Shown here: piece by piece, positions 1 to 26,807 of the stretch
Position numbering within the stretch: position 1 is the stretch's first letter
Layout: each line of letters begins with the position of its first letter
From: a virus
Strand: one strand, 5' to 3'
Virus record (IMG/VR): IMGVR_UViG_3300030012_002033
Span: 1 to 29,982 of that record
DNA length: 29,982 nt
Translations under genes and position numbers: made by a program
Notes under the pieces: generated by a model
The model's input: the letters and a program-made list of their open reading frames with translations, nothing else
What the model was told of the DNA's origin: nothing
The model's database searches: none

Positions 1-156
1 GTGTTCTTCAAGACTTATATAAGTGTAACCTTTTAAGTTGAAGTAGTTTGTTTTATATTTATTAAACCATTTTGGTAATTGGTGTAATTGGTATGGTAAA
101 TAAGTTTTGTTATTTAATTTAATAATTGAAAGTTGGTTTGTTTTAATTTTGTACAT
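1..156 (-). CDS. Leftward gene, partial at left edge (hypothetical)
   Basis: An open frame on the minus strand starts with ATG at 156 and runs off the window after 52 codons without a stop. The visible protein begins MYKIKTNQLS and is rich in Lys, Asn, Tyr and Leu, with W at residue 30. An in-frame stop lies upstream (193-195), so ATG-156 is the natural start. It follows an A-rich leader (AAAAAAAATATATACA) like the leaders of the rightward genes. I do not recognise a family. It is the only gene here pointing left, so the genome probably switches transcription direction at this point. An opposite-strand gene block is common in crAss-like phages, but that comparison is inference. Confidence 0.55.
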   Translation of the reverse strand, partial: MYKIKTNQLSIIKLNNKTYLPYQLHQLPKWFNKYKTNYFNLKGYTYISLEEH

Positions 157-235
157 TGTATATATTTTTTTTAGTTTATATTTATTTGTTATTCATATAT
201 ATTATCGAAGTGTAGTCGTAGTTAGTTTGTATTAG

Positions 236-282
236 TGTGACATTAGGTAGTTAATTAGGTAGAGTAGGGGGCAAGTGTCACA
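236..282. repeat. Inverted repeat TGTGACA ... TGTCACA
   Basis: Two perfect 7-nt arms (236-242 and 276-282) are separated by 33 nt in the divergent region. The spacing fits a two-half-site operator or a large-loop stem. The arms do not extend further, so chance cannot be excluded. Confidence 0.35.
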
Positions 283-284
283 GT

Positions 285-304
285 GGGGGCCGGGCTGGGG
301 TGGG
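285..304 (+). other. Predicted G-quadruplex motif 1
   Basis: Four runs of G (5, 3, 4, 3) are separated by CC, CT and T, fitting G3+N1-7 four times on the + strand. A further five-G run lies at 267-271. Such a motif is unexpected in AT-rich DNA. Confidence 0.5.
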
Positions 305-402
305 TAGTGCAAGGTAGATACGGATAAATGTAGATAATAGAGGTGTAGAGAGGGTAATCTAGAGTAGCTAGGTGGGGCCCTTCTAGGATGGCGTTTTCCC
401 TA

Positions 403-429
403 GGGGAGGGGAGGGGGTATATAGGGGGG
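403..429 (+). other. Predicted G-quadruplex motif 2
   Basis: Four runs of G (4, 4, 5, 6) are separated by A, A and TATATA. This is the strongest quadruplex-type sequence in the window, about 85 nt upstream of the first rightward start codon. Its G-runs could also pair in the competing hairpin built on CTAGG/CCTAG just upstream. Confidence 0.55.
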
Positions 430-514
430 CAACACCCGGGCTCTATATTTAATACAACTTTTTTTTACAGTGGCCTTACTTAAATATTTTATTTACTATG
501 TAATTATTAGGATT

Positions 515-1369: not shown

Positions 1370-2103
1370 TAGGGGATGTAGAAGGAGGCGTTTCTCCATT
1401 TAAAATATTTGGTAAACGTAGAAAAGGAGGCACTAAGGTAAAAAGAAAAGCTACTAAGACAGCTAAAAGACGTGGTGGTTTTAGTAAATCTACTAAAAGT
1501 AAAAATATACCTGGCTTTAACAGGCAAACTAGATTTAGTTACAAGCCAAGAGCTGGCTCACCAGCACCAACATCACCTTCTCCACCAGTTGTAACGAGTG
1601 TAGGACCAGGTGGACAACCTGTAATAAACATCGATATAAGTGATTTAGTAGATTTAAACGTAGCTAATGCAGTTTCTACTGGATCACCTTCACCGTTTGA
1701 AGAAGTAATTGAAGAAGAAACAATAACAACGGAAAACAAAGAGATGTCTGGTATAACATCGATAGAACAATACTATGACAAATATAAAAAGCTACCTAAA
1801 TACGAAGAGGTTTGGAAATATAATTTAACATACAAAGATTACGGAAAAACAAGAGATAGATTTGATACTTTTGAAGATTACGTAAGAGCTGCAAACGCGG
1901 ACTGGAAAGGTGGTAGAGTTGAAAGTATTAGCGAATTAGGAGAAAGATCTAAAGGCTCTTTCAAAGAAACTAAATCAGAGAGCTCATCAAGTTCAACTAC
2001 AACTAGATCTAAGAGAACAATAAAAGGAGGAAATAATAATAATAACAAGGACAACAAAATAACTATAAACCAAAAAATTAAAAACAACAACAATGGCATT
2101 TAA
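1366..2103 (+). CDS. Basic, low-complexity hypothetical protein coupled to MAFK cluster
   Basis: A 245-residue protein starting MIGDVEGGVSPFKIFGKRRK. It lacks the MAFK start but has an SPFK sequence near the N-terminus. Residues about 17-60 are a strongly basic, Gly/Lys/Arg/Thr-rich DNA- or RNA-binding-type segment. A Pro-rich stretch follows (about 63-80), then VINIDISDLVDLNVANAV (about 86-103), which resembles the C-terminal motif of the upstream protein. The middle (about 130-185) is Tyr/Lys/Trp-rich and possibly folded; the end is poly-Ser/Thr and poly-Asn. The start overlaps the upstream stop by 4 nt and the end overlaps the next gene by 11 nt. Function unknown. Confidence 0.65.
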   Translation: MIGDVEGGVSPFKIFGKRRKGGTKVKRKATKTAKRRGGFSKSTKSKNIPGFNRQTRFSYKPRAGSPAPTSPSPPVVTSVGPGGQPVINIDISDLVDLNVANAVSTGSPSPFEEVIEEETITTENKEMSGITSIEQYYDKYKKLPKYEEVWKYNLTYKDYGKTRDRFDTFEDYVRAANADWKGGRVESISELGERSKGSFKETKSESSSSSTTTRSKRTIKGGNNNNNKDNKITINQKIKNNNNGI

Positions 2104-3034
2104 ACTACCAGGCAAATCAATGATAAGTGGCTCAGCACCACATAGATCTGCCTTAAAAATGAAAAAAGAGTCCATGGCAAAAATGAAGACCATGGCAAAA
2201 ATGAAAAAAGAGTCGATGGCTAAAATGAAGTCACCGATGAAAGGAGCTTATGAAGACGCTTTGAAAAAAGACGCTAATCTACCAGAGTACATAAAACAAA
2301 GAAGAGCGTTAAAAAAGGCTAATCCAGATGGTTATAAAACTTCTAAGGAGTACGCTAAAATTCAAAACAAAATAAATGCTGCTTACGGTGTAAGCAAGCG
2401 TTATGACGAAGGATCAACGCCTAGAGTAACTAAAACAGTAGACAAGAATATTAATAAAAGTAAAACAGTAACTAGAAAAGACGGTACTGTTAAGAGAACT
2501 GTAGACAAAAACGTTACTGTAAAAGATGGTGAAAAAACAAAGACTAGAACTGTAAAAAAGTTTGACAAAGAAGGTGATTTAAAAAAGACTAGAACAGTAA
2601 CTAGAGGAGGCGGAGAACGTAATGTAAAAGTAACTGATGCAGAAGGAAAAGTTACTAAAGACAGAACTAGAAAAACTATAGGTGGTAGACTTAAAAATAT
2701 TTTTAAGAAAAAAGATAGATCACCTGCTACAATGAAGAAAGAGTCTATGGCTAAGATGAAGAAGCCTATGAAAATGAAAGAGCCAATGAAAATGAAAGAG
2801 CCAATGAAAATGAAAAAAGAATCTATGGCTAAGATGAAGAAAGAAGGGGCAATGAAAATGAAGAAAGAAAGCGCTATGAAAATGAAAAAAGAAGGTGCTA
2901 TGAAAATGAAAAAGGCGCCTAATAAATTTAATGCTAAACTAAAAGCTGCTTCTGCTGCTGGTAAGTTAAGCGGTAAGTTTAAAGAAGCTGTAGATGCTGC
3001 TCCAGTTAAGATGAAAAAGAAAATGAAAAAATAG
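2093..3034 (+). CDS. MAFK-tag, Met/Lys-repeat polycationic protein
   Basis: A 313-residue, extremely basic protein. It opens with MAFKLPGKSMISGSAPHRS and runs into Met/Lys repeats (residues 23-50, KKESMAKMK units). A mixed segment (51-110) follows, then a Thr/Val/Lys/Arg repeat region (about 112-190) with alternating RTV/KTV and DG turns that suggests a beta-repeat. A second, longer Met/Lys array (about 214-274, units such as MKMKKE and MKMKEP) and a Lys/Ala-rich tail complete it. No catalytic motif is visible. The charge suggests DNA or polyanion binding, for example condensing packaged DNA or filling the capsid as an internal protein. The tag links it to the other MAFK proteins. Confidence 0.75.
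   Translation: MAFKLPGKSMISGSAPHRSALKMKKESMAKMKTMAKMKKESMAKMKSPMKGAYEDALKKDANLPEYIKQRRALKKANPDGYKTSKEYAKIQNKINAAYGVSKRYDEGSTPRVTKTVDKNINKSKTVTRKDGTVKRTVDKNVTVKDGEKTKTRTVKKFDKEGDLKKTRTVTRGGGERNVKVTDAEGKVTKDRTRKTIGGRLKNIFKKKDRSPATMKKESMAKMKKPMKMKEPMKMKEPMKMKKESMAKMKKEGAMKMKKESAMKMKKEGAMKMKKAPNKFNAKLKAASAAGKLSGKFKEAVDAAPVKMKKKMKK
2159..2242 (+). repeat. Met/Lys coding repeat, N-terminal array
   Basis: Within the polycationic protein, ATG/AAA/AAG-rich units encode KKESMAKMK-type peptides (residues 23-50). Sequence matches the C-terminal array, so it is also a site for recombination within the gene. Confidence 0.7.
2732..2914 (+). repeat. Met/Lys coding repeat, C-terminal array
   Basis: Near-tandem units encode MKKESMAK, MKMKEP and MKMKKE peptides (residues about 214-274). 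Several neighbouring units are almost identical at DNA level, which suggests recent expansion by slippage or unequal recombination. Confidence 0.75.
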
Positions 3035-3398: not shown

Positions 3399-4964
3399 AT
3401 GGAATACAATTTACCTAGCGAAATTGTCAAAGACTTAAACTTTGGCGATAACGCAAAACAAAAAATTATTGCTGGCGTAAGTAAGCTAGCCCAAGCCGTA
3501 AAATCCACATTAGGCGCAAGCGGTAAGTGCGTTATATACGAAGATGGACGCGGTAAACCGGTTATCACAAAAGACGGAGTAACAGTCGCAGAATCTGTTG
3601 TCTTGTTTGACCCGGTTGAAAACATGGGTGCTACGCTTATTAAAGAAGCAGCTAGAAATACAGTGAAAGAAGCAGGTGACGGTACTACTACAGCTACCGT
3701 CCTTGCTGAAGCACTAATAAAACATATTAACCACGAACAAACTCACGGTGTTTCTACTAGAGAAATAAAAGAAGGTATTGCTTCTGGTTTAAAAAAAGTA
3801 AACGATTATCTTGACTCTATTAAAATAGAAGTAAAAGATAATATGTTAGACAATGTCGCTACTATTAGCTGTAACAACGATGGAGAGCTAGGCGCTATTA
3901 TAGCAGATGCTTATAAAAAAGTTGGTAACGACGGCGTTGTTTTAATGGAAACTTCAGATACTGACGAAACTTATGTTGATATAGTTGACGGAGTTCAAAT
4001 TGACTGTGGATTAACATCACCGCATTTTGTCACTGATACAGACAAACAACGTGCAGTGCTTGAAAATCCATTAATTTTAATAGTACAATCAGAAATACCT
4101 AATATTAGAAAAATACAAAATGTATTAGAGTTTGTTATTAAAAATAATAAATCACTTTTAATTGTAGCTCCGGTTAGTCAACAAGTAAAAGCAGCTTTAT
4201 TAATGAACAAAGTAAAAGGTAATATTAAAATAAACATTATAGATTTACCAGGCTTTGGTCCTACTAAAAATGATACAGTAAAAGATTTAGCTTTATTAAC
4301 TAATGCCATTGTTATAAATGAAGAGCTAGGTGATGACTTAGACTCTATATCGTTAGATGTTTTAGGTGAAGTTGAAAAAGTAGTGACTGATGATAATAAT
4401 ACTGTTATAACGTTACAAGAAATAACTAAAGATGTTAAAGATCGTATAAAAGAAGTTAAAAAATTACTTAAAAAAGAAAAGAACGGTTTTTTAAAAAAAT
4501 TTTTAGAACAAAGAATAGCTATGCTTTCTGGTAGTGTAGGTGTTATAAAAGTTGGCGCTAGCTCAAAAGTAGAGTTAAAAGAAAAGAAAGATAGAGTTGA
4601 AGATGCGATATATGCTACTAAAGCCGCTTTGAAAGAAGGTATAGTACCAGGCGGTGGTATTGCTTTGTTAAACGCATCAGAAAGATTACCATCTGAAAAT
4701 ACAGGTGAATCAATACTTTTCGACGCTATTAAATCTCCCTACAAAACTATATTGTCTAACGCTGGTATAGAGCCAACTGAAGAGCTAGCTAGTGGCAATG
4801 GAATAAACGTTATAACTGGCGAAGAAGTTGATATGGTTAAAGCAGGTATAATAGATCCTGTACTTGTAACTAAAAAAGCACTTAAAAATTCCGTTTCTGT
4901 TGTAACTACTATTATATCCGCTGATTGTGTAATATCAAATATAAGAGTCAATGAAGGCAGTTAA
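3399..4964 (+). CDS. groEL: Phage-encoded chaperonin GroEL (60 kDa, group I)
   Basis: A 521-residue protein reading as GroEL through its whole length; the ATP-driven double ring folds proteins in a closed cavity. Visible signatures: the nucleotide-site loop TLGASGK (37-43, canonical TLGPKGR), ITKDGVTVA (56-64), GDGTTTATVLA (93-103, including the catalytic-domain Asp), VEDAIYATKAA with Asp at 402, and VPGGGIALL (416 on). The apical domain keeps the order of the family (CGLTSPHF, IPNIRKI, LPGFG). It is shorter than the usual about 545 residues mainly because the C-terminal Gly-Met tail is absent; it ends IRVNEGS. Its end overlaps groES by 14 nt. Likely clients are phage capsid or tail proteins (inference). 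A leader of TTAAAT repeats precedes the ATG. Confidence 0.95.
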   Translation: MEYNLPSEIVKDLNFGDNAKQKIIAGVSKLAQAVKSTLGASGKCVIYEDGRGKPVITKDGVTVAESVVLFDPVENMGATLIKEAARNTVKEAGDGTTTATVLAEALIKHINHEQTHGVSTREIKEGIASGLKKVNDYLDSIKIEVKDNMLDNVATISCNNDGELGAIIADAYKKVGNDGVVLMETSDTDETYVDIVDGVQIDCGLTSPHFVTDTDKQRAVLENPLILIVQSEIPNIRKIQNVLEFVIKNNKSLLIVAPVSQQVKAALLMNKVKGNIKINIIDLPGFGPTKNDTVKDLALLTNAIVINEELGDDLDSISLDVLGEVEKVVTDDNNTVITLQEITKDVKDRIKEVKKLLKKEKNGFLKKFLEQRIAMLSGSVGVIKVGASSKVELKEKKDRVEDAIYATKAALKEGIVPGGGIALLNASERLPSENTGESILFDAIKSPYKTILSNAGIEPTEELASGNGINVITGEEVDMVKAGIIDPVLVTKKALKNSVSVVTTIISADCVISNIRVNEGS

Positions 4965-5208
4965 TTATTACATAATTATAGAGCAGATAAAAGAAGGACC
5001 TAAAAAAGTAGGTAGCCTTATACTAACAGACGATGTCAACGAAGATAATAGATATTTAAAAGGTAAAGTTGTATCTATTGGTAATAATGTCGAAGGTATA
5101 AAAGAAAACGATGTTATATACTACGACAAGCACGCAGGCCACGGTATACAACATAAAGATAAATTTTACGGCGTTATAAAACAACAAGACGTCGTACTTA
5201 TAGATTAG
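4951..5208 (+). CDS. groES: Phage-encoded co-chaperonin GroES
   Basis: An 85-residue GroES-type lid protein, slightly shorter than the usual about 95. It follows and overlaps groEL by 14 nt, reversing the usual bacterial order (groES then groEL). Residues about 15-33 match the mobile loop, with the hydrophobic tripeptide LIL (23-25) in GSLILTDD at the position of the GroEL-binding IVL. Then GKVVSIGNN (38-46), ENDVIYYDKHAG (52-63) and a final strand DVVLID follow the family pattern. The pair should form a GroEL cap dedicated to the phage chaperonin or able to work with the host one. A gap of about 75 nt separates it from the next gene. Confidence 0.9.
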   Translation: MKAVNYYIIIEQIKEGPKKVGSLILTDDVNEDNRYLKGKVVSIGNNVEGIKENDVIYYDKHAGHGIQHKDKFYGVIKQQDVVLID

Positions 5209-6105: not shown

Positions 6106-6507
6106 ATGGCATTTAAAATGAAAGGCCCGTCACTATTAAAAATGGTATCGGCATTAAAGAAGAAAGGTGATCCTTACACTAAAGAAGATTATGATTTTTT
6201 AAAAGAGCAAAGAGAAGAAAGAGTTACTTCTATGGACTATTTATCTAAGATACCTAGAGGGCCAGTTGAAACAGAAAGTAAAAAAGGCAATGTTCAAAAG
6301 TTTAAAGAAAAGAATAAACAATACGTGGACAAAGACAAGACTACACCTTTGTCACCTGGTTATGAAGACACTAAAAAAATACAAAGAGTACAAAGAGAAG
6401 GTTTAATACCTAGCTCTCAAAACTTTGATAAAAAAATAAAAAAGCTTAAAAGACCAGATCAAGCTAAATTTAGTGATTTAGAAAAATCAGACGACGATAG
6501 AGGATAA
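6106..6507 (+). CDS. MAFK-tag family protein, 133 aa, charged
   Basis: The protein starts MAFKMKGPSLLKMVSALKKKGDPY, so the tag continues into an amphipathic helix (about 8-20). The rest is very hydrophilic and probably extended or helical, with Lys/Glu/Asp/Gln-rich stretches, the sequence KIPRGPVETESKKGN (about 48-62), and a Lys-rich segment (KKIKKLKRPDQ). It ends with DLEKSDDDRG. No catalytic motif is visible. It is flanked 1 nt upstream by the winged-helix gene and 11 nt downstream by another MAFK gene. Possible virion cargo or internal protein; function unknown. Confidence 0.65.
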   Translation: MAFKMKGPSLLKMVSALKKKGDPYTKEDYDFLKEQREERVTSMDYLSKIPRGPVETESKKGNVQKFKEKNKQYVDKDKTTPLSPGYEDTKKIQRVQREGLIPSSQNFDKKIKKLKRPDQAKFSDLEKSDDDRG

Positions 6508-6518
6508 AATTTATAATT

Positions 6519-6911
6519 ATGGCATTTAAATTAGGTAGTAAAAAAAATAATAGAGCTCCACTTTCTTTTAAAAAAGAAACTGATGAAATACCAGGCACAC
6601 CTATATTTCGTAAAAACTTAGGTAAAGGAATAATGGGTGAAGCTAATAATGATGGTACTATATTTTTAAATAAAGACGTACCAAAAGGTAGCGATTTAGA
6701 AGCCCACGTATTATTACACGAGATGCAACACATGACCGACATGAAGCTTGGTAAATTAAAATATGACGACAACTCTATAACCTGGAACGGTGAAACATAC
6801 GAAAGAAAAGACGGTAAAGTTTTTTTTGAAGGTGAGTTTAAGCCAGAAGGCGATAAATCATTTCCATGGGAAAAAATGCCTTGGGAAGCTAAATATAAAA
6901 ATAAAAAATGA
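6519..6911 (+). CDS. MAFK-tag small zinc metallopeptidase-like protein (HExxH)
   Basis: A 130-residue protein with the tag MAFKLGSKKNNRAPLSFKKE followed by a compact domain. Residues 67-71 are HEMQH, the HExxH zinc-peptidase signature, in a helix (LEAHVLLHEMQHMTDMKLGK). A strand-type segment precedes it (GEANNDGTIFLNKD). The C-terminus has PWEKMPWEAKY (116-126), where Glu123 could be the third zinc ligand as in gluzincins, though this is unproven. Known HExxH families hydrolyse peptides. Here it could process capsid proteins, act after ejection, or help lysis. Its stop overlaps the holin start by 4 nt (ATGA). Confidence 0.65.
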   Translation: MAFKLGSKKNNRAPLSFKKETDEIPGTPIFRKNLGKGIMGEANNDGTIFLNKDVPKGSDLEAHVLLHEMQHMTDMKLGKLKYDDNSITWNGETYERKDGKVFFEGEFKPEGDKSFPWEKMPWEAKYKNKK

Positions 6912-23500: not shown

Positions 23501-26500
23501 AATATATCAAACTATACAAGACTTTGGATACGTAGGTAATACTGGCGGTGGTTTTACAAATACATACAATTCTGCTAATAGTTCTACGCCTTCTTATTTA
23601 CACCTTTCTTTTATGTCGCCTGGCGTAGATTTACATGACGGTAACTTTAATGCTGTCAAATCCAAATTCCAAAATAATTTTCCTGCTCTAGGTCTTGAGT
23701 GGTCTGAACTGTATAACATTTTGTTTTCTAAAGAATTTTTACAAAAAATACATGCTGAAAGTATATACCAGCCTAAATTAAAGCTAGGACCAGGTGGACA
23801 AGAAGAAAGATTTAAAGCTACAACCAATGCGATTGGACTAAATTTTGGTGGCGCTCGTTTTCAAGACGAGTGGGGTAATATTGGTACTAGCAATTATCTT
23901 ACAAATGGATCTAGTTCTTGGAATCCAAACCCTACTAGTGAGGGTCTAACCAACACAGATCCAAACGACCCTGATTGGGCACGATGTTTCGATCCTACTT
24001 ATGTTCAACCTTCTAACCAAGGTATAATAGATAATTTAGTACAAGGCCGTAGATTTACAATAGAAGGAGATGATAATACTGTTTATACAATACTAAAAGT
24101 AACAAAACACTTTTTATACAACCACACTAGTTGGAATCCTCATTTTAGATGGAAGAGTGGTCCAGCTGGAGGTTATTCTAAATACCCTTTTATTACCCCA
24201 GTCACAATAAACGGAGTTAACGCGGTTTATACTCATGACGGTCCAATTAATTACGGATCTTCTTCGTCAACTCCACCAATTTTTGCTCATTTTTCTGTAG
24301 CTCAAGCTATGTGGGAGTTTGCATCTCTATTTAATTATACCGGTTCTGGTGGTCCTGGAAATGGTGTAGGTGCGCCGCAATGGGACGATCTTGAGAAAAC
24401 TATAGTTAATTTTGGTAAAGCTAACAATAGAAGAGTTACTTATATTCTAGAGTTAGATAAAGATCCAAGAACAGCAAGTCCTAGCACTAGTATTTATACT
24501 TCTGATAACGGCGCTGGTACCGTTAGTGATACAATTCCTTCATTAATAAATTTTATAGACAATTATTTAGAAACAGGTTCTAACACACTTCCTACATCTC
24601 CAGCAATATTTGAAACAGAAGCAAAGGAAGACGTTGATTTAAATATTTATTTTGAAGCTAGTGATAATATACCTATTGGTGTAGTTGAAGACTCTGAAGA
24701 AGTTAGAGGTAATATACTTGCGCCTCCGGGTACAAAAGTTGTTTCAGAGCTTGATGGTGCAGATCCTACTGACTGGGAGGTTGTAAATGACAACGCTGGA
24801 ACAGAAAATTTATTTTTAAAAGTTAGAAACTGGGAAAATGGTAACACACTGCGTTTAACGCCACCTGGACTTGTTCACGGAACGACAGGCTTACAGACTG
24901 CAGATTACATAGGAAGTAAACTTAGATTTATTAGAGAAGATGGTAGCTATATAGAGGCTACAATAATAGATATAGAAGTAGTTAACAATAAAATATTTAC
25001 TTTAAAGATAAATCCTGATGTATTTAATGAGTACTATGGACTTCCATATTACAACTGTTTTAGTTTTGGCAATGGTGTTGAATCTAATAGAATTAGAGAT
25101 GATTTTAACGAAAGCTTTATACTAAACGGCGTGAAAGCTTCAACTGTTTTAGAAGAGCCATACGCTGAAGAGCATAGAAAGTATGGCTTAATATTCTCTG
25201 GTCTATATAACTCTACTAGTGGTGTAAATAACTTAAATCAATTTATACAAGCTGAAAAAATAACTAAAGACGTTAACCCTACGTTTGGTAGCATACAAAA
25301 ACTTTACTCAAGAACAAAAGATTTAGTTACATTTTGTGAAGATAAAGTACTGCAGATATTTGTTGATAGAGACTTGTTGTTTAACGCAGAAGGACAAACG
25401 CAGCTTTTAACAAGTAATAGATTTTTAGGTACAACACAGCCATTTGCTGGTAATTTTGGTATATCTACTAATCCAGAATCTTTTGCCGCTGAATCATTTA
25501 GAGCTTATTTTACAGACAAACAAAGAGGCGCTGTACTTAGACTATCAAGAGATGGTTTAACGCCTATATCTGACGCTGGTATGACAGATTATTTTAGAGA
25601 TAAATTACCTAATTACGATGTTTTGTATGGTAGTTATGACGCTTACAAAGGTGATTACAACTTAACTTTGAAACAAAAAAATACAAATAACAACTCTACA
25701 AGAGGCGCTCTTACTAGATCTGTAGTTTTAGAAGACACAACCGTAACGTATAATGAAACAGCAAAAGGTTGGGTAAGTTTTAAATCTTTTATTCCTGAAA
25801 TAGCCTTAAGTTCAGTTAAACAATACTACTCGTTTGATAAAGGACAGTCTTATAAGCATCACGTTAATAATATAAGAAACACTTTTTATGGTAAATTTTT
25901 AGATTCGTCTATAACGCCTATATTAAACATGCAGCCAGAGCTAGTAAAACATTTTAACACATTGAACTATGAAGGTACGCAGTCTAAAGTAGATATATTT
26001 ACAACTGATCCAATTACAGGGCTTACAGATGGGCAATATTATAATTTACAAGCGAAAAAAGGTTGGTATGTTGAAAGTGTGTTTACTAATAAGCAAGAAG
26101 GTACTGTAAATGAATTTATTGAAAAAGAAGGAAAATGGTTTAACTATATAAAAGGTACGGAGTTTCATATAGATCCTGCTGCTTTTAATTTTCAAGGAAT
26201 AGGTATTGTTGACAAAGTAAAAAACCCACCACCCCCTCCACCAGTAGACGTTTTTGGATGTACTGATTCAACAGCAATTAATTATAATCCTCTTGCTACT
26301 GTTGATGATGGTTCGTGTGTATTACCAGTTTATGGATGTACAGATATTACAGCTGCTAACTACGACCCTAACGCAAACGTTGATGACGGTAGTTGTATAC
26401 CTATTATATATGGATGTACAAATCCAAACGCTGTTAATTATAATGCAGGCGCCCAACAAGATGATGGAAGTTGCATTTTTACAGCACAAAGTTTTGAGCT

Positions 26501-26807
26501 TCAAATTAGAGAGAATAATAGTCCTACCGCGACTATCGGTGCTGCTAGAGTTGCATATAGCGGTACAAATATACCTGTAACTATTTCTGATGGCTTTACG
26601 TTCGCTTGGAGTAATGGCGGTACAGGTGAAGAAGTTACTAATTTACCAATGGGACCTATCGCTGTTACAATTACAAGTGCTAACGGAACTCCATATAATT
26701 TAAATGGTTTTTTAGCTGCAAACGTCCATTATGGGTGTACAAATCCAAATGCAAGTAATTTTGATTACACTGCTAACACAGACGATGGTAGCTGTATAAT
26801 CCCTTAA
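20520..26807 (+). CDS. Giant tail protein with Bacteroidota-type C-terminal repeats (muzzle/stabilisation-like)
   Basis: A 2095-residue protein starting MPEIKNVFRQGVMNKDLDER. The opening MNKDLDERLVPNGQYRDAMN and SENSDVGTVQNILGN match the start of the large tail stabilisation or muzzle-like proteins of crAss-like and related phages. The body is mostly beta, with few charged repeats. The C-terminus holds a poly-Pro linker (about 1903-1910), three tandem GCT...NY...DDGSC repeats (1913-1985), a SprB-like beta repeat (about 1986-2071, with FAWSNGGTGEEVTNLPMG) and a fourth GCT repeat (2072-2092). The Cys pairs suggest disulfide-closed loops. It is probably a tail-tip or tail-surface protein that contacts the host. 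The crAss link is by recall. Confidence 0.75.
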   Translation: MPEIKNVFRQGVMNKDLDERLVPNGQYRDAMNVEISTSENSDVGTVQNILGNEVVGINKFDTFYDDDLVCVGAIADEKNDVFYYFLTGVNNNFIIELDHFGNETLVFVDTKRILGFNPNKIITGINIIDDLLFYTTNENEPKKINIKSCKQGTTSVTTHTQLVVNGVNQGDIQLENITVIKKRPTKSPDVIFKESAIQNLVVLPAVNFFGQNIGDTISGVLIGDINNPIWPSPFQLDDIILASSDTTSLTAGVFDVSLRVVSIIPQPPASIGTPPVLTSFGVEIDFEIVAINSGTFQTDVAQSFNAIKKVDIEPIFEREFIRFATRYKYVDGEYSAFSPFTQPVFLAGRFGFHPTKDPYNLGMENNSINILLNNLVEANVPKDVVQLDILFKKERSTTIYTVDSIKPDDPGTPNKWNTNDFPNNAILSWSGSTLQSSIIEGNSPTGQYEITVENIYAALPENQLLRPYDNVPKKALAQEITGNRLVFANYVQNYNMIDSQGSYVKQDIQVAKEQRGFYFNENINFPENKGKKSIKSLRTYYLGVVYGDEFGRETPVFTSKNASINIPYDDDESSTYDLFNPDKSLRLKAKLNGPPPDWAYYFKYYIKQTTGEYYNLTMDRVYKTSGDENLWISFPSSDRNKIQEGDYFSIKKQVDIEQIVPVENKIKIIDIKNESPESIKYNYQNLGTASGSLTVLEDLFPNINKRPGEGVASIEVDADEFVNTHGGIDIEKALTPSDRIALQFSINAPNGNGVIKSKVYLVTAFAVENTTVGSSATGQYNIALKDKIAESDSWVRDGNGNLNATDGLTFSILKTVEKDATEFEGRFFVKIISSPITQQFLIPSTTDTTNFSNIGVVQYFNLSNTIQDPGNGNTLLGINPFTCVNSVLTTTIPNLSVQPSDFASASTFDSGANNDTGWFVDALGFVAAQEDSSPLDADKSGRMTKGDPSVSKNQWVNGLEGVISFPNGTAGTPYSLTSARQWSNKAYRLANDRKIYQTIQDFGYVGNTGGGFTNTYNSANSSTPSYLHLSFMSPGVDLHDGNFNAVKSKFQNNFPALGLEWSELYNILFSKEFLQKIHAESIYQPKLKLGPGGQEERFKATTNAIGLNFGGARFQDEWGNIGTSNYLTNGSSSWNPNPTSEGLTNTDPNDPDWARCFDPTYVQPSNQGIIDNLVQGRRFTIEGDDNTVYTILKVTKHFLYNHTSWNPHFRWKSGPAGGYSKYPFITPVTINGVNAVYTHDGPINYGSSSSTPPIFAHFSVAQAMWEFASLFNYTGSGGPGNGVGAPQWDDLEKTIVNFGKANNRRVTYILELDKDPRTASPSTSIYTSDNGAGTVSDTIPSLINFIDNYLETGSNTLPTSPAIFETEAKEDVDLNIYFEASDNIPIGVVEDSEEVRGNILAPPGTKVVSELDGADPTDWEVVNDNAGTENLFLKVRNWENGNTLRLTPPGLVHGTTGLQTADYIGSKLRFIREDGSYIEATIIDIEVVNNKIFTLKINPDVFNEYYGLPYYNCFSFGNGVESNRIRDDFNESFILNGVKASTVLEEPYAEEHRKYGLIFSGLYNSTSGVNNLNQFIQAEKITKDVNPTFGSIQKLYSRTKDLVTFCEDKVLQIFVDRDLLFNAEGQTQLLTSNRFLGTTQPFAGNFGISTNPESFAAESFRAYFTDKQRGAVLRLSRDGLTPISDAGMTDYFRDKLPNYDVLYGSYDAYKGDYNLTLKQKNTNNNSTRGALTRSVVLEDTTVTYNETAKGWVSFKSFIPEIALSSVKQYYSFDKGQSYKHHVNNIRNTFYGKFLDSSITPILNMQPELVKHFNTLNYEGTQSKVDIFTTDPITGLTDGQYYNLQAKKGWYVESVFTNKQEGTVNEFIEKEGKWFNYIKGTEFHIDPAAFNFQGIGIVDKVKNPPPPPPVDVFGCTDSTAINYNPLATVDDGSCVLPVYGCTDITAANYDPNANVDDGSCIPIIYGCTNPNAVNYNAGAQQDDGSCIFTAQSFELQIRENNSPTATIGAARVAYSGTNIPVTISDGFTFAWSNGGTGEEVTNLPMGPIAVTITSANGTPYNLNGFLAANVHYGCTNPNASNFDYTANTDDGSCIIP
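26256..26795 (+). repeat. GCT...DDGSC repeats and SprB-like repeat (C-terminal coding)
   Basis: Three tandem 21-residue units (about 78 nt period; residues 1913-1933, 1939-1959 and 1965-1985) with consensus GCT[DN]xxAxNYxxxAxxDDGSC and 5-residue spacers ending in Y. An about 86-residue SprB-like unit follows, then a fourth copy (26733-26795). Aligned copies keep both Cys and the DDGSC end. Confidence 0.85.

Follow-up and report, generated by a model that had tools for sequence, protein, structure and literature searches.

The DNA analysed here, called the window throughout, is the whole 29,982-nt stretch of IMG/VR virus record IMGVR_UViG_3300030012_002033. Near its left end a non-coding island separates a leftward gene from rightward genes, as the initial annotation had described. 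The genes downstream of the island are late genes of a tailed phage and encode GroEL, terminase, portal and virion proteins. Judged by the terminase, the nearest relatives are an uncultured podovirus from Manatee Spring (65%) and Elemovirus (46%), followed by phages of Cellulophaga, Tenacibaculum and Maribacter; the nearest isolates infect marine and Baltic Flavobacteriaceae. The features of the island and its flanks are collected in Table 1.

Table 1. Features in and around the island, with coordinates of the window.
Feature	Position	Strand	Basis or remark
Leftward gene, 5' part (MYKIKTNQLSIIKLNNKTYLPYQLHQLPKWFNKYKTNYFNLKGYTYISLEEH...)	1..156	-	Cut by window edge; read directly from sequence; early promoter points into gene
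Leftward early promoter, consensus TTACAAACTAAATACGA-N9-GATAATATA	198..232	-	Weight matrix score 33.2
Perfect 8-bp inverted repeat, 5' arm TTGTATTA and 3' arm TAATACAA	227..234 and 450..457	+	Repeat search, 100% complementary
Palindrome C (TGTGACATTAG...GGCAAGTGTCACA), 47 bp, putative operator	236..282	+	Model R1 match 232-287, 55.5 bits, E 3.6e-10
Element B, G-rich, RNA-like; 3' block GGGGGGCAACAC...CTCTATATTTAATACAA	about 284..466 (284..458 without T8 tract)	+	Fixed-spacing block common to 41 relatives
Hairpin P3 of B, TATAGGG / CTCTATA, 7 pairs, one G-U	420..447	+	Read from sequence
T8 tract right after closing arm	459..466	+	Possible 3' end of B RNA
Late promoter motif (TGTAAAT-like ... 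TTTACTATGTAATTATTA)	478..507	+	A few nt before first late ATG; motif matches in relatives
First late gene, 73 aa	515..736	+	Weak phrog_6437 match

The composition of the island departs strongly from that of its surroundings. Between 213 and 424 the + strand holds 20 TAG and only 4 CTA triplets, with 84 G against 20 C; 5.5 ± 2.2 TAG would be expected, and none of 5000 composition-preserving shuffles reaches 20. Among all 212-nt segments of the record, the TAG count is highest (19; mean 5.0, sd 2.5) in those starting at 200-220, where G minus C also peaks, and the GC content is about 0.49 in the island versus about 0.33 elsewhere in the window. The TAG-dense, G-rich character that first drew attention to the island is therefore real. 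The triplets are irregularly spaced, at 4-40 nt, and form no periodic array.

Comparison with related phages, a check that the initial annotation had suggested, shows that the short elements of the region are conserved. The 73-aa first late gene was used to collect 32 IMG/VR loci as relatives, and their upstream regions carry the same set of short elements as the window. This conservation contradicts the view that the island is a compositional oddity or functionless foreign DNA. Its GC and TAG content is indeed far from that of the rest of the window, but with many relatives carrying the same elements at the same place that view is scarcely credible, and the initial suggestion of foreign DNA falls with it. 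The TAG triplets themselves were rejected as the conserved signal, as relatives do not keep them: the upstream regions (up to 700 nt) mostly hold 4-27 TAG. On this comparison, TAG density is a feature of the lineage and the conserved signal lies elsewhere, in a functional unit that is wider than 210-430 and spans about 198-514. G-quadruplexes were likewise discarded as a conserved feature; the window has two such motifs (shuffles give one in 15%), yet they are present in only 7 of 35 relatives. In the sequences compared, more than 100 uncultured phages share a conserved region of which the island is one variant; there a single intergenic region holds a leftward early-promoter motif, palindrome C, the G-rich element B and a late-promoter motif.

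The early promoter was recognised with a weight matrix built on 325 distinct 35-mers from related phages, and, against the value in Table 1, the next-best sites of the window score -9.3 on the - strand and -4.7 on the + strand. In related genomes the 35-mer has 184 matches in front of many leftward genes, 174 of them extragenic, mostly less than 60 nt from the ATG. Many of the early promoters in the early block are adjoined on their upstream side by TGCTATACA or its complement TGTATAGCA (L030 4790-4803, L016, L046, L114 and other loci). The late motif, TGTAAATTAC-N-TTTACTATGTAATNATA, lies 5-6 nt upstream of the ATG of the first late gene or genes in most relatives; most of its 42 matches there fall 5-29 nt before the start of a late gene, chiefly the first one or ones. 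A standard sigma-70 promoter scan found nothing above chance. The primary-sigma promoter of Bacteroidetes consists of TAnnTTTG at -7 and TTTG at -33 (PMC7366714), and these boxes are absent from both the early and the late consensus; the two promoter classes are therefore likely to be read by an unusual or phage-encoded sigma factor.

Palindrome C (also written TGTGACATTAG...GGCNNNTGTCACA) abuts the -35 side of the early promoter, three bases from its upstream end. It is present in all 30 whole related records, mostly in two or three copies per genome, one at the divergence, another 4-9.5 kb away and sometimes a third; owing to its near symmetry, many of its places are recorded on both strands. 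In the 26 cases where B precedes C and both neighbours are seen outside an ORF call, the genes on either side of C diverge in 22. In most relatives only a few bases separate the end of C from the late motif downstream, unlike in the window, where it stands on the early-promoter side, about 200 bp from the late motif; L016 and L036 share the early-promoter side. A pattern scan of viral contigs found at least 120 stretches with C, and the same scan of bacterial genomes found it in one contig, which is phage-like and carries early promoters, B and C ahead of a rightward gene. The MAG into which that contig (L159, PANU01000065.1) has been binned, SAT25, belongs to the Flavobacteriaceae, which hints at the family of the host. 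A blastn search with C against isolate phages gave no match.

The sequence of C points to recognition by a protein. The arms GACA/TGTC are nearly invariant, whereas the symmetric positions -3/+1 are complementary in just 18 of 176 sequences, about 52 being the estimate expected from base frequencies; position -1 is an A-C mismatch in 51 of the 176, and position +5 is also non-complementary. These counts come from related sequences and are not independent. Avoided complementarity and A-C mismatches indicate selection on a sequence with polarity rather than on pairing alone, and as judged from these patterns C looks more like a site recognised by a protein than like a hairpin alone. The initial annotation had considered a promoter region with protein-binding repeats such as GTAG. 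The promoter part of this idea has been borne out by the early promoter, the late-promoter motif and the conserved palindrome, while the GTAG repeats have given way to the 47-bp palindrome as the putative site.

Two further functions of C were weighed and appear far less probable than that of an operator. As a mere bidirectional intrinsic terminator, C would account for the A-tracts before and T-tracts after its copies in the left block and for its frequent location 2-20 nt away from an ORF end. This reading is very unlikely: across many phages C is conserved almost letter for letter, much more strictly than termination would require, copies of it extend over start codons, and no terminator-like site was called in the window region. 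Still more improbable is a role in site-specific recombination, with the C copies as the sites at which the early block would be inverted. The copies are mostly inverted and 6-8 kb apart, and there are weak matches to HTH_7 (resolvase) and phrog_125 (DNA invertase), but the genomes whose gene order was compared show one orientation only, with the early block pointing away from the late genes, and the regulator protein described below is without a resolvase catalytic domain.

A second copy of C ties the palindrome to a particular gene. Among the best 80 relatives of a protein of about 205 aa with an HTH-like region, C covers the start codon of the gene at all 80 loci (76 by pattern and four whose left arm was cut off by the search frame), always in one fixed register, ...GGCTAATGTCA, with ATG TCA inside the right arm. 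Such tight linkage of gene and site is what an autoregulated operator predicts. The C-terminus of the protein matches Pfam HTH_11, HTH_23 and HTH_7 with E values of 1e-4 to 4e-2, below curated cut-offs, and this region has an AF2 pLDDT of about 82-92; the predicted HTH assignment is weak. Foldseek returned no significant match for the protein, and no convincing sequence match was found in the PDB. None of the isolates encodes it. The gene that follows codes for a sigma-70 factor with regions 2 and 4 (phrog_351, E 3e-19 and 2e-20), and the next for an ERF annealing protein. The 30-kb record of the window ends before the regulator gene; going by the relatives, the same genome would also carry it.

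The position of C over a start codon also raises the possibility that it acts as RNA, namely as a translational operator at the start of the regulator combined, in the late leader, with a site for processing or for antitermination of the put/nut kind. In this double form the reading is doubtful, although C is hairpin-capable and several features speak for it: the start codon lies in the 3' arm at 80 of 80 loci, the loop length varies by 1-2 nt, and in most genomes the orientation of C is that of the following operon. At the regulator gene C usually sits where two ORFs adjoin or overlap, with no obvious early promoter beside it, an arrangement that would also fit an RNA (translational) operator. 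Against an RNA hairpin stand the lack of covariation between the arms, the A-C at -1 and the non-complementary positions -3/+1 and +5 noted above, and the five pairs that are all RNAalifold retains on C; at the late operon C is upstream of the late motif, so it need not be part of the late mRNA. An RNA role restricted to the start codon of the regulator is nonetheless a serious alternative, and one that could coexist with a transcriptional switch.

Element B lies between C and the late motif in the window, and its 3' block, GGGG-CAACAC-TATA-CYYC-WATATTTATAAYR, keeps a fixed spacing in 42 sequences. The similarity between B of the window and that of relatives has a z of 7.3. Where the B model gives a match, it is confined to a single place in the genome, which is almost always the divergence; the threshold is passed by 15 of 29 records and by no isolate. 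B was not found in the divergence regions of phi38:1 and MW202828 (z 0). Elemovirus (Flavobacterium phage elemoA) resembles the present phages in having a B-like stretch ahead of its first late gene (z 5.1) and a similar late gene set, but it differs in that no C occurs in the part searched, no HTH regulator is detected by tblastn, and the late promoter resembles the TAnnTTTG type that is standard in Bacteroidetes.

Several lines of evidence suggest that B is transcribed. The inverted repeat would close the whole island as RNA and is present in both the MFE and centroid folds. The window region folds with a z of -4.15 on the + strand versus -0.21 on the - strand, and 222-462 again gives -3.95; B itself reaches -2.5 on the + strand and +0.8 on the - strand. 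An alifold of 17 relatives gives -7.3 versus -2.3 for the same strands, the + strand consensus having two hairpins and a closing stem. Hairpin P3 recurs in relatives as AUAGGGG/CYYCUAU with 88% of cells paired, and the MFE fold of the window favours other pairings. Across the alignment, G-U cells outnumber A-C cells (54 vs 12), and the given pairing holds in 87% of cells versus 41-58% when it is slid. T runs of at least six follow B in 19 of 43 relatives versus a 2% background, and A runs of that length in 1 of 43. A stable fold of B in each relative was rejected, the mean z of single relatives being -0.84; covariation is modest, with column shuffles not clearly exceeded (38-265 of 500). The initial proposal of a structured RNA gene is thus moderately supported: the strand-specific fold of the window and the consensus of the relatives on the same strand uphold it, while the ordinary folds of single relatives and the modest covariation count against it. 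B is probably a + strand RNA, a reading held with moderate confidence. No Rfam family reaches its gathering score in the window region or in relatives.

The same element could instead mark a replication origin, which the initial annotation had also named. The G-rich + strand RNA ending at a T-tract would then serve as an R-loop or primer, and C as an initiator or primosome site. Such an origin would explain the single place of B in each genome, nearly always at the divergence, the G-rich RNA-like strand followed by a T-tract, and the B-like stretch of Elemovirus, which is without the regulator. Some B copies (L041, L118, L028, L083) also carry two direct repeats of GTAAC-N3-CTGATAATCAG, a pattern that suits a protein-binding array or an origin. 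Strand composition lends no support to this. The sign of the GC skew switches at the island solely because the genes diverge there, coding-strand skew being alike on both strands, so that the proposed skew check yields nothing in favour of an origin; in the four near-complete genomes no skew switch independent of gene strand was found, and third-position skew is near zero in most of them. C on the start codon of the regulator would not be expected either, and an origin is considered rather unlikely.

The elements together make it probable, as far as sequence comparison can indicate, that in an uncultured podovirus-like clade of flavophages the island acts as the region where transcription switches from early to late genes. 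Early transcription would run leftward and produce both the phage sigma factor and the HTH protein. The latter would bind C on its own gene, resulting in autoregulation, and at the divergence it may have two effects: lowering early transcription, as suggested by the window, where C abuts the early promoter, and helping to start late transcription, as suggested by most relatives, where C adjoins the late promoter. The phage sigma factor may recognise the late promoter. In the least certain step, B would be transcribed rightward as a small or leader RNA, often ending at the T-tract. Binding, repression, activation and the B transcript are what we infer from these arrangements. A bolder version, offered tentatively, is that B constitutes a new RNA class, phage-encoded, transcribed rightward, ~70-240 nt long and without an Rfam family, and that C is an operator with two modes of action, working as DNA at the divergence and, on the gene of its own regulator, as an RNA hairpin that spans the start codon, the whole being widespread in an uncultured flavophage clade.

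The closest functional parallel is the p4 switch of phage phi29, where the p4 sites are placed between the promoters A2c/A2b and A3 and two of these sites overlie early -35 elements (PMC3100819). At the level of motifs the window has the same layout, with divergent early and late promoter motifs and C between them. In both cases palindromic sites (here putative) of a phage-encoded early regulator are placed between divergent promoters, one site abutting the early -35, and the sites are pseudo-inverted repeats with asymmetry. The differences are equally clear: C is a 47-bp palindrome, whereas the phi29 sites are CTTTTT-N15-AAAATG; C also covers the start codon of the regulator; the regulator here is HTH-like, while p4 has a novel fold; and here a sigma factor gene follows the regulator and an RNA-like B is present. 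Searches of the regulator against Pfam and PHROGs gave no p4 match. By analogy, the proposed switch would work as p4 does in phi29, but with an unrelated regulator and unrelated sites it falls outside that system. A looser resemblance exists to lambda nut and HK022 put. These are conserved hairpin-forming elements near operon starts that serve as antitermination sites. C is likewise found near operon starts, in two or three copies per genome and oriented with transcription, but it differs in being without covariation, in lying over a start codon and in standing upstream of the apparent promoter at the late operon.

To our knowledge, almost nothing is known about gene control in marine flavophages. 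The present comparison connects two classes of phage promoter with a cis element, a regulator gene and a phage sigma factor across more than 100 uncultured genomes, and it provides short, concrete sequences for testing both an early-to-late switch and a candidate new RNA. C alone locates the regulator and the early/late boundary, making it a useful handle for annotating related viral contigs.

The flanking operons show some features of their own. The late operon of the window includes GroEL and GroES-like genes (3399-5208), and groEL/groES also occur in phi38:1 and Elemovirus. Several late proteins begin with a similar N-terminal peptide (MAFKMKY.., MAYKMKY.., MAFKLPGK.., MAFKMKGP.., MAFKLGSK..; coordinates 738-800, 968-1030, 2093-2180, 6106-6170 and 6519-6580), which is also seen in the relatives L003 and L014 and could be a shared targeting or packaging tag. 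A 313-aa late protein (2093-3034) is rich in Lys and Met and built of KMKKESMAKMKK/PMKMKE repeats, and the C-terminal end of a 2095-aa protein (26100-26804) consists of several GCTDPNATNYNPxAxxDDGSC-type repeats, which are common in flavobacterial surface proteins. Among relatives, an 11-kb late gene encodes a virion protein of 3694 aa, perhaps an injected enzyme (L160:564-11648; Elemovirus gp21), and in the early blocks of L162-L170 a small protein (SKRFVIRKSLIG...YNHDKVY...) is represented by several paralogues, often each with an early promoter.
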